Below are positions 42,946 through 49,520 of a DNA stretch of 64,000 bases, in pieces. The stretch is from Stigmatella aurantiaca (lineage in GTDB: Bacteria > Myxococcota > Myxococcia > Myxococcales > Myxococcaceae). Each line of letters starts with the position of its first letter. The first letter of the stretch is position 1. Both the position numbers and the translations under genes were made by a program. The stretch is taken from contig NZ_FOAP01000016.1 of the NCBI RefSeq assembly GCF_900109545.1, positions 1 through 64,000 on the forward strand. Reading direction: 5' to 3'. The notes beneath the pieces are model-generated. The model was given only the letters and a program-made list of their open reading frames with translations. It searched no databases and had not been told where the DNA came from.

Positions 42946-43338
42946 ATGCCGGAGCCCCGCCGCGTTCTTCTCGTCGAGGACCATGTCGACAGCCGTGAGA
43001 TGCTCGAAGAGTTCCTGAGTGAGCAGGGCTACACGGTGGAGACCGCCGTCAACGGCCTCGAGGCGCTGGAGCGGCTGCGGCGCGAGCCGCCCCCCGGGGT
43101 GATGCTGCTGGATCTGATGATGCCGGTGATGACGGGCTGGGAGCTGATGGAGCGCCTGGAAGAGGAGCCCACCCTCCACCGCATCCCGGTCATCGTCGTC
43201 TCGGGCGCGGGGGCCACGCGGCCGGTGCCCTCCGGCATCCTCGCCTCCATCCCCAAGCCCCTGGACTTGCAGCTCTTGATGGAGACGCTCGCCCAGGTGT
43301 GGCCCCGCCCCCGGCGGACCGCCTCCACCGGGCGCTGA
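42946..43338 (+). CDS. Single-domain response regulator
   Basis: 130 residues, a lone receiver: VLLVEDHVDSREML, acceptor Asp in MLLDLMMPVMTGW, VIVVSGAG, Lys in IPKPLDL. GAGG lies about nine bases before the ATG. It faces the large hybrid kinase at 43348, with the two stop codons forming a stem-loop, and is a reasonable phosphorelay partner for it. Confidence 0.88.
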   Translation: MPEPRRVLLVEDHVDSREMLEEFLSEQGYTVETAVNGLEALERLRREPPPGVMLLDLMMPVMTGWELMERLEEEPTLHRIPVIVVSGAGATRPVPSGILASIPKPLDLQLLMETLAQVWPRPRRTASTGR

Positions 43339-43350
43339 GCCCGCGGCTCA
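43336..43350. terminator. Compact stem-loop built from two facing stop codons
   Basis: TGAGCC and GGCTCA pair perfectly around a 3-base loop; TGA of the receiver gene and TGA of the opposite kinase form the outer ends. No T-run. Confidence 0.5.
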
Positions 43351-45798
43351 CCGGGGCCCCGCGGCCTCCGGGCCCGGCGGCCCCGCCCCCTCCCGGGGCA
43401 CGGAGAGCCGGAAGGTGGTGCCCTCCGGGGCCGTGGAGGTGACGGACAGCCCCCCCTGGTGCCCCTTCACCACCTGCTCGACGATGTAGAGCCCCAGCCC
43501 CAGGCCTCCCCCCTCGGAGGCCGCGCGGCGGAACGGATCGAACAGGTGCGGCAGGGCCTCGGGGGGAATGGGCAGCCCCAGGTTGTGGACCTCCAGCACC
43601 ACCGCGGCGCCCTCGTCCTTCAGCCGGAAGGTGACGGGGGAGCCGGGCGGGCTGTACTGGAGCGCGTTGCTCCCCAGGTTGCTCACCACCTGCACGAACC
43701 GCCCCGCGTCCCACTCGCCCTCGTAGCGCCCGGGCTCCACGTGCAGGAGCACCTGGCGGTCCGGCCAGGCCGCCTCCAGCTCCTCCACGCCCTGGCGCAC
43801 CACGGCGCGCAGGTCTCCCGGCTTGCGATGGATGGGGATGCCTCCGCCCAGGCGCCCCCGGGTGAAGTCCAGCAGCTCTTCGATCATCCGCTTCATCCGG
43901 TCCCCGGCCTTGGAGATGCGGGCCGCGGCGCGCTGCTCCCGGGGCGGCAGCTGCTCGCTGTGCAAGAGCTGCGTGACGGACAGGTGGATGGCGTTGAGGG
44001 GGTTGCGCAGATCGTGGCTGACGATGCCGATGAGCTTCTCGCCGAACTCGGCGGCCTGGCGCGCGGCGGCCTCCGCGCGGCGCAGCGGCGTCACGTCCAC
44101 GAGCGTCAGCACGCCCGCGAGGATGGTGCCCTCCCGGCCCCGGATGGGCGCGCTGGAGGCCAGGACGCTGGCGCGGGCGCCCTCCTCGCGCTGGATGTCC
44201 AGCTCCTCCCCCTCCACCACCTCGCCCCTCAGCAGCGAGCGGGCCAGGGGCCACTCCCCGTCCAGGTAGGGACGCCCGTCCAGGTGGTAGCCCACGGAGG
44301 CACCGTACGCGCGCAGATCCTCTTCCGGCGTGAACACGGTGCCCAGGAGCCGCTCCATGTGCCGGTTGCTCAGCATCAACCGGCCCGAGGAGGCCTCGGC
44401 GAGCAGGACGCCCACGGGCAGCTGCTCCAGCACCGCGGCCAGCCGGGCCCGCTCGGCCTCGATGCCGGACAGCAGCCGCTGGCGCTCGGCCTCCGCGACG
44501 CGGCGCTGGGTGATGTCCATGAAGGCGCCGGCGCGCTGCACCACCTGGCCGCTCTCATCCCGGAAGGACGTCACGTGGGTGAGCACGGGAAAGCGGGTGC
44601 CGTCCTTGCGCAGGTGCATGGACTCGTACTCGTGATGGGTCTTCGAGTCCGCCACGCCCATGTGCCGGCTCAGCGTGCCACGCGACTCGGGGGCGAAGGT
44701 GTCCTGCAGGGGCCGCCCCACCAGCTCCTCGCGGGTAAAGCCGTGCATGCGCGCGAAGGCGGGGTTCACATCCTCCAGCACGCCGTCCTGAACCCGGGTG
44801 AGCACCACGCCCACCCCCAGGTGCGTGAAGATTTCCTCCCAGCGCTTGCGCCGCTCTTCACTCGCCCGCAGCCGGGCCAGCGACTGCTCAGCCTCGGCGC
44901 GGGCCTGCTGCTCGCGCGCATGGGCCTGGGCCCGGGCCAGCATGGAGGTGGTGCGCGCCGCCATGGTGCGGAAGAGCAGCAGATCCTCGCTGGAGAACTC
45001 CTGGCTGGTGCGGCTGCCCATGAGGGCCACCCCCAGCAGCGCCCCATCGAGCAGCAGGGGCACCCCATAGGCGGCCCGCAGGCCCTGGGCCTGGAGCAAC
45101 GGGGAGATCCGCCGGGCGTCCGTGGCCTGCTCGTGCACGAGCACGGGTTGCCGGGTGGCGGCGACCGCCCCCGACAGCCCCTCGCCCACCCGCCCCCGCC
45201 AGTCCTTCTTCACCTCTACCCCGACCGCGCTCTCCACCCGGAGCAGGTCCCCCTCGCACACCAGCACGGCCACCACGTCCACCACCGGCACCGTCTCCTG
45301 CAACACCTGGAGGAGCTGGGGCAGGAAGCTGGAGACGTCCGGGCTGCCAATGGCCGCGGCGGAGATGCTGTCCAGGGCCTGGAAGGTGCGGTCCCGGGCG
45401 CGCATGTAGCGCGTGACGGAGGCCGTCACCGCCTCGTCAACGGCGTCGTGGAACACGGCCGTGGCCTCCGGGGAGCCCTCCAGCCCCCGGGCGGCCCACA
45501 GCCGCAGCACACACCGGCGCAGCAGCCGGTACTCCGTCACCACCTGCCGCAAGTCGAAGCCCTCGCCCAGCCGCTCCAGGGCGTGGACGTCCGGCACGCT
45601 GCCGAGGGCATCCTCCGCCGGGGGGGGGGCGGACTGGACCATCATGTCCGCGATGGCTTCCAGCAGCAGGGGAAGGTGATCCCTCAGCGCCACCTGGGAC
45701 AGCACGCGGGCCGCGGGAAGCTCCCGCACTTCCGCCTCCCACGCTTCGAGGATCGCGTCGCGGTGGGTGCGGAGAAAGTCTGCCAGTTGATGTGACAC
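43348..45798 (-). CDS. RsbRD-GAF-PAS-PAS sensor histidine kinase
   Basis: 816 residues from GTG 45798 (VSHQLADFLRTHRDAIL). Order: RsbRD-type N-terminal helical sensor (about 1-140), GAF (about 165-305), a coiled coil, PAS with PAC (about 325-440; THLGVGVVLTRVQDGVLEDVN to GAFMDITQRRVAEAE), second PAS (about 455-570), HisKA with His595 in IVSHDLRNPLNAI and HATPase (NLGSNALQYSPPGSP, GLGLGLYIVEQVVKGHQGG). The motif LLDFTRGRLGGGIPI places it with the paralogues at 7438, 30612 and 36613. A small gene lies 43 bases upstream on the same strand. The frame remains open upstream but without homology. Confidence 0.88.
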   Translation of the reverse strand: MSHQLADFLRTHRDAILEAWEAEVRELPAARVLSQVALRDHLPLLLEAIADMMVQSAPPPAEDALGSVPDVHALERLGEGFDLRQVVTEYRLLRRCVLRLWAARGLEGSPEATAVFHDAVDEAVTASVTRYMRARDRTFQALDSISAAAIGSPDVSSFLPQLLQVLQETVPVVDVVAVLVCEGDLLRVESAVGVEVKKDWRGRVGEGLSGAVAATRQPVLVHEQATDARRISPLLQAQGLRAAYGVPLLLDGALLGVALMGSRTSQEFSSEDLLLFRTMAARTTSMLARAQAHAREQQARAEAEQSLARLRASEERRKRWEEIFTHLGVGVVLTRVQDGVLEDVNPAFARMHGFTREELVGRPLQDTFAPESRGTLSRHMGVADSKTHHEYESMHLRKDGTRFPVLTHVTSFRDESGQVVQRAGAFMDITQRRVAEAERQRLLSGIEAERARLAAVLEQLPVGVLLAEASSGRLMLSNRHMERLLGTVFTPEEDLRAYGASVGYHLDGRPYLDGEWPLARSLLRGEVVEGEELDIQREEGARASVLASSAPIRGREGTILAGVLTLVDVTPLRRAEAAARQAAEFGEKLIGIVSHDLRNPLNAIHLSVTQLLHSEQLPPREQRAAARISKAGDRMKRMIEELLDFTRGRLGGGIPIHRKPGDLRAVVRQGVEELEAAWPDRQVLLHVEPGRYEGEWDAGRFVQVVSNLGSNALQYSPPGSPVTFRLKDEGAAVVLEVHNLGLPIPPEALPHLFDPFRRAASEGGGLGLGLYIVEQVVKGHQGGLSVTSTAPEGTTFRLSVPREGAGPPGPEAAGPR

Positions 45799-45841: not shown

Positions 45842-46117
45842 TCAGAGCGCCTGAGGGCTCGCAGTGTCGTCCCCGGGGGCACGGAGTTCCAGCAGGTGCA
45901 GCAGGCCGTGGCCCCGGTCCAGCGCGTACCGCACATGGAAACCAGAAGGCAGGGTGAAGTCCCCGCCCGTGGTGCTTTCCGACACCGGCTTCCCGGCGCG
46001 CAGCAGGGGTCCCGAGAACACTTCTCCCAGCTCGCTGAGGACGCGCTCGCGCACCGTCGCCTGGCAGTTGGACAGAAGACCCACGGTCTGGGGGGCAAGC
46101 TGAAGTCGGAAAGCCAT
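45842..46117 (-). CDS. Small protein, possibly ParE/RelE-like fold
   Basis: 91 residues. Predicted pattern: first strand (FRLQLAPQTVGLL), two helices (SNCQATVRERVLSELGEVF), then strands (FHVRYALDRGHGLLHLLEL), as in RelE/ParE-superfamily proteins, but catalytic residues cannot be assigned and no antitoxin gene is next to it. It lies 43 bases upstream of the RsbRD kinase, likely co-transcribed. The C-terminal part of the divergent receiver protein at 46276 has the same pattern. No Shine-Dalgarno is obvious. Function unknown. Confidence 0.62.
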   Translation of the reverse strand: MAFRLQLAPQTVGLLSNCQATVRERVLSELGEVFSGPLLRAGKPVSESTTGGDFTLPSGFHVRYALDRGHGLLHLLELRAPGDDTASPQAL

Positions 46118-46275
46118 GATAGGTCCAAACTGGACACTCCCTGCCGCCGCAGCAAGCCACCAAGCAGGGCCCCTGGAAACGAGCCCTTGCGTTCAGGCCA
46201 GGTCAGACCCGGTGCCTGCCCGCCCGGGGTAGGTTGCTTGGACTGCCGGGAACTGGTTGGATTCGCGCCACCCCC

Positions 46276-46953
46276 ATGCCCGTGCACCGCTTACTCGTCG
46301 TCGAGGACGATCCGTCCTGGCAGAAAAGCCTGGAAGACGTGGCGCGCGCCGAGGGGTGTGACGTCACCGTCGTGTCCGATGGAGAAGCGGCGCTGAGCAC
46401 CCTGAGCGGCGATCCGCGGACCCGGCCGAACCTCGTGGTGCTGGATCTGCTGTTGCCCCGGATGGATGGGTGGGAGGTGTACGGGCGGATGCGGGTGGAC
46501 CACGACCTGCGCACCATCCCCGTGCTGATGCTCTCGGCGGCGGCGGCCCAGGAGCCCAAGCTGGGGGGCATCGTGGGCATGCTGCAGAAGACGTCCTCGC
46601 CCGAGCCCGTCATCCACCAGTTCCGGGAGCGGCTGCGCGGCTTCACGGTCCCCTCTCCGGCGGCGCCGGAGGAGAGCCTCTACACGGTGCGGCTCACGGA
46701 GGACACGTCGCTGCTGCTGCACTCACTGCCCCCCGCGCTGCGCCATGCCTTGCGCCTGCACCTGTTCCGCGCGGCGGACCTGCTGCGGACGGGCCTGCCG
46801 ATGATGTCCACCTGGCTCATGGCGCTGCCCGGAGAGCCCCCGTCGCTGCTGGTGACGGTGGAGGGTGTGCGGGCCGTGATGGAGATCAACGAGGCGGAGC
46901 GGACGCTCACCGTCACCTCGCTGATCATCCCCACCTACCTGCCGCGCATGTAG
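46276..46953 (+). CDS. Response regulator with ParE/RelE-like C-terminal domain
   Basis: 225 residues. Receiver (1-125; LLVVEDDPSWQKSL, acceptor Asp in VLDLLLPRMDGW, VLMLSAAA); the conserved Lys region is altered (MLQKTSSPEPV). The C-terminal 90 residues start SLYTVRLTEDTSLLLHSL, continue with a helix (PPALRHALRLHLFRAADLL) and end in strands (LLVTVEGVRAVMEINEAER, LTVTSLI). The spacing of hydrophobic positions matches the 91-residue protein encoded divergently at 45842. No DNA-binding domain is seen, so the output is probably protein or RNA contact. Confidence 0.8.
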   Translation: MPVHRLLVVEDDPSWQKSLEDVARAEGCDVTVVSDGEAALSTLSGDPRTRPNLVVLDLLLPRMDGWEVYGRMRVDHDLRTIPVLMLSAAAAQEPKLGGIVGMLQKTSSPEPVIHQFRERLRGFTVPSPAAPEESLYTVRLTEDTSLLLHSLPPALRHALRLHLFRAADLLRTGLPMMSTWLMALPGEPPSLLVTVEGVRAVMEINEAERTLTVTSLIIPTYLPRM

Positions 46954-46963
46954 GCGGGGCCCC

Positions 46964-46985
46964 CGGCTGCGGCTAGTCGCAGCCG
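46964..46985. terminator. Stem-loop between convergent genes
   Basis: CGGCTGCG (46964-46971) and CGCAGCCG (46978-46985) form a perfect 8-base-pair stem with a 6-base loop that contains the stop codon of the Cys-rich lipoprotein. Serves both directions; no T-run. Confidence 0.6.
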
Positions 46986-48517
46986 CCGCAGCACTTATTG
47001 TTGGGAGGCCCACTACAGTCGAGCCCTCTCAAACAATCCATATTGGTCTTGCACCTCGTTCCCTTCGAGCAATTTTTCCCAACCCCACCAGACATCCCCA
47101 TTACATCGAATACGGCCGGAAAGAACTGCCCGTCCTCGACCCCAATGGCTTGATTGCCTGCCGTGCCAGGCTCCTGGCTCTCAAGCTCAATGAAGTCAGT
47201 CGCATCATCCACAGACACTACAGTCGCATTGACCCCAGTCTCTCCCGCCTTGCCCTGCAATACGCTGCCAATCTCATGAACGATTTCGTCGGGAGAATAA
47301 TCATCCTCTAGTTCGATCTCCACACTATCCTGCCTGACAGTCTGCCCCGTATTAATCTCAAACACTACCGGAATCCTCTTCCCCACACCAATCACAAACC
47401 TCCATCCATCAATAATATTGAGAAACGCCCCACGGAACTTGATATGTCCTTTGGATTTCCCTCCGTTATTTTCCGCGAGCAAATCCTCAGAGCACGAGGC
47501 ATTACAAGTGCCACAGGAAAGCGCATTGCCGTCGTCGCACTTCTCTCCATCTTCAACAATGCCGTTCCCACACACACTTCTCTTACAAGCGGCAGAGCAC
47601 TCCTTGCCTCCCGAGGGCCCCTCATCACAGTCTTCGCCTGGATCGACTCTTCTGTCGCCGCAAAAAGACACGATGCACCCCCTGCAAGCAACGGACGGCA
47701 CTCCACCCACGTCGCATTGCTCCCCCGCGTGGTGATTGACTATCCCGTCACCACATTGTGGCCGCGTACAATCAAGATCGCACTCACTGGTCTCCGCGCC
47801 ATCATCGCATTCCTCAGCGAGATTCTTGATCCCATCACCACATCGCGGAGCATGGCAATCGTTCGAGCAGAGATCTGAATTCTCCAGATTGCCATCGTCA
47901 CACTCTTCGTTGGCTTCTTGGACGCCATTGCCGCAAACGCCGCCCGCCTTGCAGTCAGCAGTGCAATCGTCTCCGTTGAGATTATTGCCGTCGTCGCATA
48001 CCTCATCTGCCGCAACATCCCAGACGCCGTTCCCACAAGTCTCATTCGACTTGCAGTCCGCACTGCACTTATCGCCACTCTCCGTGTTCCCGTCGTCGCA
48101 GACCTCCCCCTTCACCGCGTCCACGATTGCGTTCCCACAGATCTCCGCCGATTGACAGTTCTCACTGCACCCGTCACCAGCGAGGGTGTTTTTGTCGTCA
48201 CAAACCTCACCAATGGCCTTGTCCGTCACGCCATCGCCACACTTCTCTAGCGATAAGCAACTGGCACTACAGCCATCTCCGCCCTTGACGTTGCCGTCAT
48301 CACAGAGCTCGTCTTTCTGGATGACGCCGTCTCCGCACGTATCGGTCAGGCATGAATTCCCGTCCGCGGAGCACGTCGCCGCGCTGGGGCACACCAGCCC
48401 CGAGGAACAGGTATGACTCTTGGATTCGTAGCAAGAAGCCAGCAACGAGACCACGAAGGCCAGGGCTGCCCAACGCACGCACTCCCAGCGCCTTGGGCCG
48501 AGGGAATTACTTTTCAT
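46973..48517 (-). CDS. Cys-rich repeat surface lipoprotein (Myxococcus Cys-rich repeat, DUF4215 type)
   Basis: 514 residues from ATG 48517, with GAGG six bases ahead. Lipobox in FVVSLLASCY. About ten repeats of the type CGDGVxxxxExCDDGNxxxGDxCSxxC (for example CGNGVWDVAADEVCDDGNN, CGDGIKNLAEECDDG) fill residues 60-335, each with paired cysteines and acidic loops that probably bind calcium. A beta-rich domain follows (GHIKFRGAFLNIIDGWRFVIG) and a Cys-rich tail (CKTNMDCLRGLDC, CCGGC). Likely exposed on the cell surface. The gene is much poorer in GC and has less third-position bias than its operon partners upstream, a sign of transfer. Last gene of the kinase-TPR operon. Confidence 0.88.
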   Translation of the reverse strand: MKSNSLGPRRWECVRWAALAFVVSLLASCYESKSHTCSSGLVCPSAATCSADGNSCLTDTCGDGVIQKDELCDDGNVKGGDGCSASCLSLEKCGDGVTDKAIGEVCDDKNTLAGDGCSENCQSAEICGNAIVDAVKGEVCDDGNTESGDKCSADCKSNETCGNGVWDVAADEVCDDGNNLNGDDCTADCKAGGVCGNGVQEANEECDDGNLENSDLCSNDCHAPRCGDGIKNLAEECDDGAETSECDLDCTRPQCGDGIVNHHAGEQCDVGGVPSVACRGCIVSFCGDRRVDPGEDCDEGPSGGKECSAACKRSVCGNGIVEDGEKCDDGNALSCGTCNASCSEDLLAENNGGKSKGHIKFRGAFLNIIDGWRFVIGVGKRIPVVFEINTGQTVRQDSVEIELEDDYSPDEIVHEIGSVLQGKAGETGVNATVVSVDDATDFIELESQEPGTAGNQAIGVEDGQFFPAVFDVMGMSGGVGKNCSKGTRCKTNMDCLRGLDCSGPPNNKCCGGCD

Positions 48518-48525
48518 GGGAAACC

Positions 48526-49520
48526 TCAAAACCGGTAGGACGCGAGGAGACCGCTTTCACCCGCCGCAGCCACAGGCACCACCGTCAACGCATTCCCCTG
48601 CAGCGGGATGAGCTGCATTTGGGGCTGAAGCCGGTTGACATACAGCAGGACCATTCCTGTGGCGAACGCGGCTCCGCCCACTGCGTAAGTTCCCATCGAG
48701 ACGGCCTGCAAGGTGCGCGCGCGTGTACGGATACCGGACAGCTCCGAGCCCGGTACGCATCCACCGCATGCATCGACTCCCGAATCGAAAGCCTGGAACT
48801 CGTCACGGGCCTTCATGTGGATGAGCCGCCCACCCACCGCCACCGCCACGCCCGAGCCCAGGACCGCCCAAGGCATCCAGGCCGCCCACCGGCGCCGGGA
48901 CTCGATGCCGAGCCGGTAGCGGATGTGCTCCCCCGGCGCCAGGACGAGGGCCGTATCGGGAACCGGGGTGCCATTTTGGGTAGCAATGAGGGTGTAGCTT
49001 CCAGGCCGAAGCAGCCGCTCGAAACGCTCACAATGGATGGGCAGGAGCTGATCCTCCCGCTTCAGCGTCACGCGAGTGCCATTCGTACACGAGAGGCTAA
49101 CCCGCGCGTTCTCCTTCTCCACCCGCTCGATGTACTTCAACGCATGCTTGAAGCGCTCCTCCCCTAGGGGCCCCTCCGCGTACCGGGTGGAAGCCACCAT
49201 GTACTCATACACCTCCGACGGCCGGTCCAGGTTGAGCAAGGCCAGCGCGAGGTTGTAATAGATGGCAGGGTGCTTCCAGTACTTGAGTGCCTCCACATAC
49301 TTCTTCTCGGCCTCCGTGAAGATGGAGTCCTTCAACAACCTATTTCCTTGCTCCAGCAACTCGGCCGCAGCCTTCCGTTGCTCCGGGGAGACCCCCTGCG
49401 CCCAAGCCGCCTGTTCCCGGAGGGCGGGCGCGGGCTGCTGAGCGAACGCCGTCACAGCCCAGAACATCATGAAAGCCCACGGCACCACGCGCCCAAGCAT
49501 GCTTCCAGATAGCGTTCGCC

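Follow-up and report, generated by a model that had tools for sequence, protein, structure and literature searches.

A predicted RelE-type fold, fused to a receiver domain and free beside an RsbRD kinase, suggests a toxin fold turned signalling part in myxobacteria

Introduction

Response regulators are built with many different output domains. In Stigmatella aurantiaca, a receiver protein with a C-terminal tail of about 90 residues is transcribed away from a gene for a stand-alone protein of similar size (hereafter the small gene), next to a sensor histidine kinase, and an earlier note on this DNA had proposed that tail and small protein are two copies of one ParE/RelE-like domain. The locus thus raises the question of whether the two domains share fold and ancestry, and of what a fused and a free copy of a toxin-type fold might do beside a kinase. 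Here we combine structure prediction, profile comparison and comparative genomics to address both points.

Results

Layout of the locus

In the window (the whole 64,000-nt stretch of DNA analysed here), the genes run in the order RR2, kinase, small, receiver-tail (Table 1), and both divergent reading frames lie where the earlier note had placed them. The same note had described the two domains as flanking the kinase, which needs correction: both lie to one side of it, and RR2, a single-domain receiver, sits at its other end. The receiver-tail protein (225 residues) is read from an ATG (46276-46953, plus strand), and its Response_reg domain (PF00072) spans residues 7-110 (E 4.1e-15). Pfam places RsbRD_N, HisKA and HATPase_c all within the kinase, as in RsbRD_N sensor kinases; its start, which we infer to be the GTG at 45798, is separated by 43 nt from the stop of the small gene. 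Pfam, NCBIfam and PADLOC gave no family for the small protein, and nothing for the tail beyond the REC of the receiver protein. A PADLOC match of the receiver-tail protein falls inside REC and was rejected as an identity for the tail. By eye, the neighbouring gene at 46973-48529 (minus strand) codes for a protein rich in cysteine and in C-G-D/N-G repeats, of a kind typical among myxobacterial surface proteins.

Table 1. Positions of the features of the locus within the window
Feature	Coordinates	Strand	Basis or remark
RR2, single-domain receiver	42946..43338	+	ORF; convergent with kinase
Sensor histidine kinase, RsbRD_N-GAF-PAS-PAS-HisKA-HATPase_c	43348..45798	-	Pfam domains
RsbRD_N domain of kinase	45502..45786	-	PF14361, E 1.1e-10
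Stand-alone RelE-fold protein (small), 91 aa	45842..46117	-	Predicted fold, conservation
Divergent intergenic region, 158 nt	46118..46275	.	Between small and receiver-tail starts
Promoter-like TTGCTG-N17-CAGTTT	46155-46127	-	Ends 9 nt before small ATG
REC domain of divergent response regulator, Asp57 phospho-acceptor	46276..46650	+	PF00072
RelE-fold tail of receiver protein, last ~92 residues, with stop	46675..46953	+	Predicted fold

A pattern modelled on the promoter-like sequence, TTGNNN-N17-CAGYYT about 9 nt ahead of the small ATG, fits 49 of 60 loci and occurs in most genera (46118-46170, minus strand, and 59 relatives); it was written after the alignment had been viewed, and its rate in shuffled sequence is 0.003. 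As the putative promoter ends about 9 nt before the ATG, the message of the small gene would be nearly leaderless.

Predicted folds of the small protein and the tail

AlphaFold models were built from the window sequence together with sequences of named relatives. The small model (E4-7 H9-17 H20-35 H37-40 E49-55 E61-67 E72-79) is of medium confidence, with pLDDT 72 and pTM 0.56, and the tail model (E5-8 H10-17 H21-40 E49-52 E58-63 E66-73 E78-85) reaches pLDDT 89 and pTM 0.78. Both predicted models show the arrangement expected of a RelE fold, beta-alpha-alpha followed by three to four strands, and the common layout described in the earlier note is recovered as E-H-H-(H)-E-E-E in small and E-H-H-E-E-E-E in the tail; the predicted folds agree, where a difference between them would have told against that proposal.

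Searched against the PDB with Foldseek, both models rank RelE-family toxins first, and nearly all of the 50 matches listed per model are of RelE, YoeB, HigB or ParE type, including the CARF-RelE effector Cami1, so that the ParE/RelE-like assignment holds up. VIA-align superposes the tail on 4fxe_E with Z 10.7 (rmsd 2.4, 80 aligned) and small on 9g12_B with Z 8.9 (rmsd 2.6, 76 aligned). At the level of sequence profiles the link to RelE is fainter: the best PDB matches of the small profile are RelE, weakly (E 0.027), a mixed profile reaches RelE at E 0.0014, and neither the tail-only nor the B+C profile (see below) retrieved RelE from the PDB sequences. The top PDB matches of the B+C profile were short helical matches to unrelated chains, and were set aside.

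Homology through bridging families

In a direct comparison the small and tail profiles align over their full length, but the score is not significant (E 0.18) and is equalled or exceeded in 8 of 60 column shuffles. Two further stand-alone families of about 85-110 residues, B (13 sequences) and C (12), emerged when the tail and small profiles were used as queries, and through them the two domains can be joined. With two odd members of B (L152 and L235) left out, the tail matches B at E 3.8e-9 and C at 2.1e-5, and small matches C at 1.9e-5 and B at 6.9e-4, none of 60 shuffles reaching the score in any of the four comparisons; B and C match each other at E 3.1e-11 (unshuffled). Omitting these two members shifts the small-B value from 5.3e-7 to 6.9e-4. 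Set against a combined profile of tail, B and C, small aligns over 80 columns at E 1.2e-6 (0/100 shuffles). These values call for some caution as to circularity, several members of B and C having come from a mixed profile of small, tail and bridging sequences (A5). When B is cut to three sequences found with the tail-only profile (L149-L151; a fourth such find, L152, was omitted), tail-B stands at E 2.3e-10 and small-B at 0.0074.

The peptides FHVRYALDRGHGLLHLLEL and VEGVRAVMEINEAERTLTV, which the earlier note had set side by side, share register in the profile alignments. Its suggestion of homology stands through families B and C and fails in the direct comparison; judged from profiles, small and tail are homologous by way of these intermediates. 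Taken jointly, homology and a RelE-like fold for both domains appear to us very probable.

Catalytic residues, charge and antitoxin

Residues were placed by alignment to Escherichia coli RelE in 59 small and 43 tail sequences. The K52 position is Gly in 57/59 small proteins and Ser in 32/43 tails, and no sequence of either set has Lys at the K54 position; Arg is retained at R61 in 27/59 small proteins and 33/43 tails, R81 is replaced by Pro in 52/59 and 36/43, respectively, and Y87 has no counterpart. Neither domain thus carries the RelE catalytic set (K52, K54, R61, R81, Y87). RelE activity needs R61, R81 and Y87, and K52A or K54A has little effect singly (PMC2807027). Charge differs as well: against a pI of 9.7 for RelE, the tails have a median of 5.6 (range 4.7-7.2, 43 sequences), the small family has a median of 8.9, and the small protein of the window stands at 6.3. 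No antitoxin-sized gene lies between or adjoining small and receiver-tail in the window, where the neighbours are the kinase and the divergent receiver.

With the catalytic residues mostly gone and no antitoxin gene adjoining, the two domains are probably domesticated RelE-fold interaction modules rather than toxins. ParE toxins are not known to rely on the residues that RelE uses, so that the loss of these is compatible with a ParE-like target (gyrase).

Receiver domain

All 43 receivers retain Asp57, Asp11 and Ser87, and Lys105 is present in 41, with Arg in the other two. By these residues the receiver is phosphorylation-competent, and the receiver-tail protein, with its phospho-acceptor Asp and switch residues, has the receiver features of a response regulator. 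The Arg105 receivers are apparently those of two Citreicoccus loci (L084, L085) which keep the tail and have no kinase beside the small gene.

Conservation and linkage

Among 96 genomes from the host's family, 61 hold the small gene (E <= 0.01), which answers the concern that it might not be conserved, and 43 hold the receiver-tail as a full protein (E <= 1e-25). All 43 receiver-tail genomes also carry the small gene, and 18 of the 61 small-gene genomes lack a full receiver-tail at E 1e-25, two of which hold a damaged one (an internal TAG stop in G076, a fragment in G065). Tail bearers among named relatives comprise Hyalangium, Myxococcus, Pyxidicoccus, Corallococcus and Citreicoccus (21 loci). 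The record of one locus of this type (L104, BNCN01000005.1) bears the name Comamonas sp. KCTC 72670, but seems to be a Myxococcus genome under a wrong label. In a phylum-wide set of 195 genomes, 49 were found with the tail profile and 64 with the small profile, and matches outside the family were few and weak (G124 and G125, by the small profile). These two genomes, from another family of the order, hold a distant stand-alone homologue of small (L184, L185), which adjoins a cold-shock-like gene and lies near a recA-like gene (names by eye). Some other weak profile matches (G015, G093) were chance frames, and were rejected as homologues.

The dN/dS of the small gene, 0.08-0.38 against seven relatives, shows purifying selection. 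A plasmid origin was rejected, the small protein having no match among 72,556 plasmid records.

Linkage was counted over 62 rows, that is, the window and 61 further stretches; not every row is a locus of its own, as L059 and L098 come from two contigs of the same genome. The usual cassette runs receiver-tail, small, RsbRD kinase, RR2. After the small gene, the best-conserved neighbour is RR2, present in 51/62 rows. Of the 11 rows without it, nine are Myxococcus loci whose kinase is displaced by additional genes and whose stretch then breaks off, and two lie at contig ends or on split contigs. Ten small-gene loci have no RsbRD kinase within the stretch examined. In nine of these ten, small directly adjoins RR2, and in the tenth (L063) both lie close together in 4.5 kb of sequence. 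The receiver-tail is kept in two of these ten loci, those from Citreicoccus. An extra receiver protein sits between small gene and kinase in L059 and L060. Start to start, the divergent pair is separated by 145-223 nt in 34 of 41 loci and by 351-1561 nt in seven. Vertical inheritance of the whole syntenic block, and not interaction, may account for this co-occurrence.

Families B and C in context

In 10 of 13 loci the gene that follows family B, on the same strand, encodes a NarL-type response regulator. Both Response_reg and GerE were confirmed in three of these neighbours, and the Response_reg match in L152 falls under the Pfam cut-off. As these loci are partly orthologous, they do not amount to ten separate events. 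The core of a kinase lying close by in L236 and L230 is 53% and 55% identical, respectively, to that of the window kinase, with RsbRD_N confirmed in L236. When matches to the core of the window kinase (E <= 1e-40) are ranked, the kinase near family B stands 2nd of 21 in G056, behind the orthologue, and 7th of 31 in G008. Family C often lies beside a Ser/Thr kinase and not a response regulator. Its members (L219-L224, L226-L229, L238) are usually followed by a conserved protein of 97-98 residues without a Pfam match, and one family-C-type gene is borne by genome G000 at C3:377939-378169.

Discussion

The reading that we favour, at a probability of roughly 0.45, is that of a two-component system in which the output of a response regulator is a domesticated, non-catalytic RelE-fold domain, accompanied by a free paralogue of it. 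Under this proposal, the RsbRD-GAF-PAS kinase would phosphorylate Asp57 of the receiver, and phosphorylation would free or mask the RelE-fold tail, which might then bind the free copy, or compete with it for one common protein partner. The constant element would be the free copy, which persists in 18 genomes in which no intact receiver-tail was found, and the fused copy would be its optional, phospho-controlled regulator, with RR2 as a possible second phosphoryl target or sink. Counted against such a system are the non-significant direct comparison of small with tail, the medium confidence of the small model, the lack of RelE matches with the tail-only and B+C profiles, the kinase-less loci, the possibility of mere co-descent, and the position of family C beside a Ser/Thr kinase.

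The strongest competitor, unlikely in our estimation yet far from negligible, holds that the tail serves its own receiver only, in dimerisation or auto-inhibition, and that its kinship with small is a relic of duplication and fusion with no mutual action. The faintness of the direct small-tail similarity would fit such a relic, as would the 18 of 61 genomes in which small persists without the tail; less readily explained is the retention of small in every receiver-tail genome, mostly at the narrow divergent spacing. That both domains are instead active toxins of RelE/ParE type, the receiver-tail gated by phosphorylation and small a free toxin with an unseen antitoxin, would accord with the predicted RelE fold of both, and the lost RelE residues are compatible with a ParE-like target. 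A precedent for a sensor fused to RelE also exists in the CARF-RelE nuclease Cami1 (PMC11229360), among the structural matches of the tail. We nevertheless regard active toxins as improbable, given the loss of R81 and Y87 and the patchy retention of R61 (roles from PMC2807027), the acidity of the tail, and the lack of an antitoxin-sized gene between or beside the pair. The genes are, moreover, single-copy, syntenic, under purifying selection and absent from the plasmid records, unlike mobile toxin-antitoxin pairs. Similarly improbable is a role of both domains in translational control downstream of the kinase, in which they would bind the ribosome or RNA but leave it uncut. The natural target of RelE is the ribosomal A site (PMC2807027), and the partial retention of R61 and the mildly basic median of the small family would be in keeping with this role, against which stand the acidic tail, the pI of 6.3 of the window's small protein, and the very few lysines.

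Comparison with known systems helps to place the favoured two-component reading. The likeness to RelE mRNA interferases, ribosome-dependent toxins of type II toxin-antitoxin systems, extends in the predicted fold over the whole domain, and the buried Gly59 position is kept in 59/59 small proteins and 43/43 tails; the myxobacterial domains differ in their mostly replaced catalytic residues, missing antitoxin gene, two-component context and conserved chromosomal synteny. With Cami1 the receiver-tail protein shares an arrangement in which a domain that receives a signal precedes one of RelE fold (PMC11229360), but Cami1 is an active CRISPR effector nuclease driven by cyclic tetra-adenylate, whereas here a phospho-receiver precedes a domain without the catalytic set. 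As in two-component response regulators generally, the receiver is intact (Asp57, acidic pair, Ser87, Lys105) and a histidine kinase adjoins, yet known response regulators have DNA-binding, enzymatic or other known outputs, and the output here is of RelE fold. The kinase itself is ordinary, with an N-terminal PF14361 followed by GAF, PAS, HisKA and HATPase_c as in RsbRD_N sensor kinases, and it is its partners that are unusual. In searches of the open-licence literature, we found no published receiver-RelE fusion or RelE-fold response-regulator output.

More broadly, and more tentatively still, myxobacteria may have drawn from the RelE fold a set of signalling adaptors that no longer catalyse and that work with one group of RsbRD-type sensor kinases. 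In this set, receiver-fused members would be phospho-switched outputs of a new class, and free paralogues (small and family B) the constant partners on which the switched copy acts.

Conclusions

The predicted folds, bridging families and residue losses described here suggest a toxin fold turned into a signalling part. With two domains of about 90 residues and one kinase, the locus offers a compact system for the direct study of phospho-controlled pairing. If the favoured reading is true, the retention of a non-catalytic toxin fold in both fused and free form next to one kinase, across a family of multicellular bacteria, would show how toxin folds can be reused as regulatory parts.
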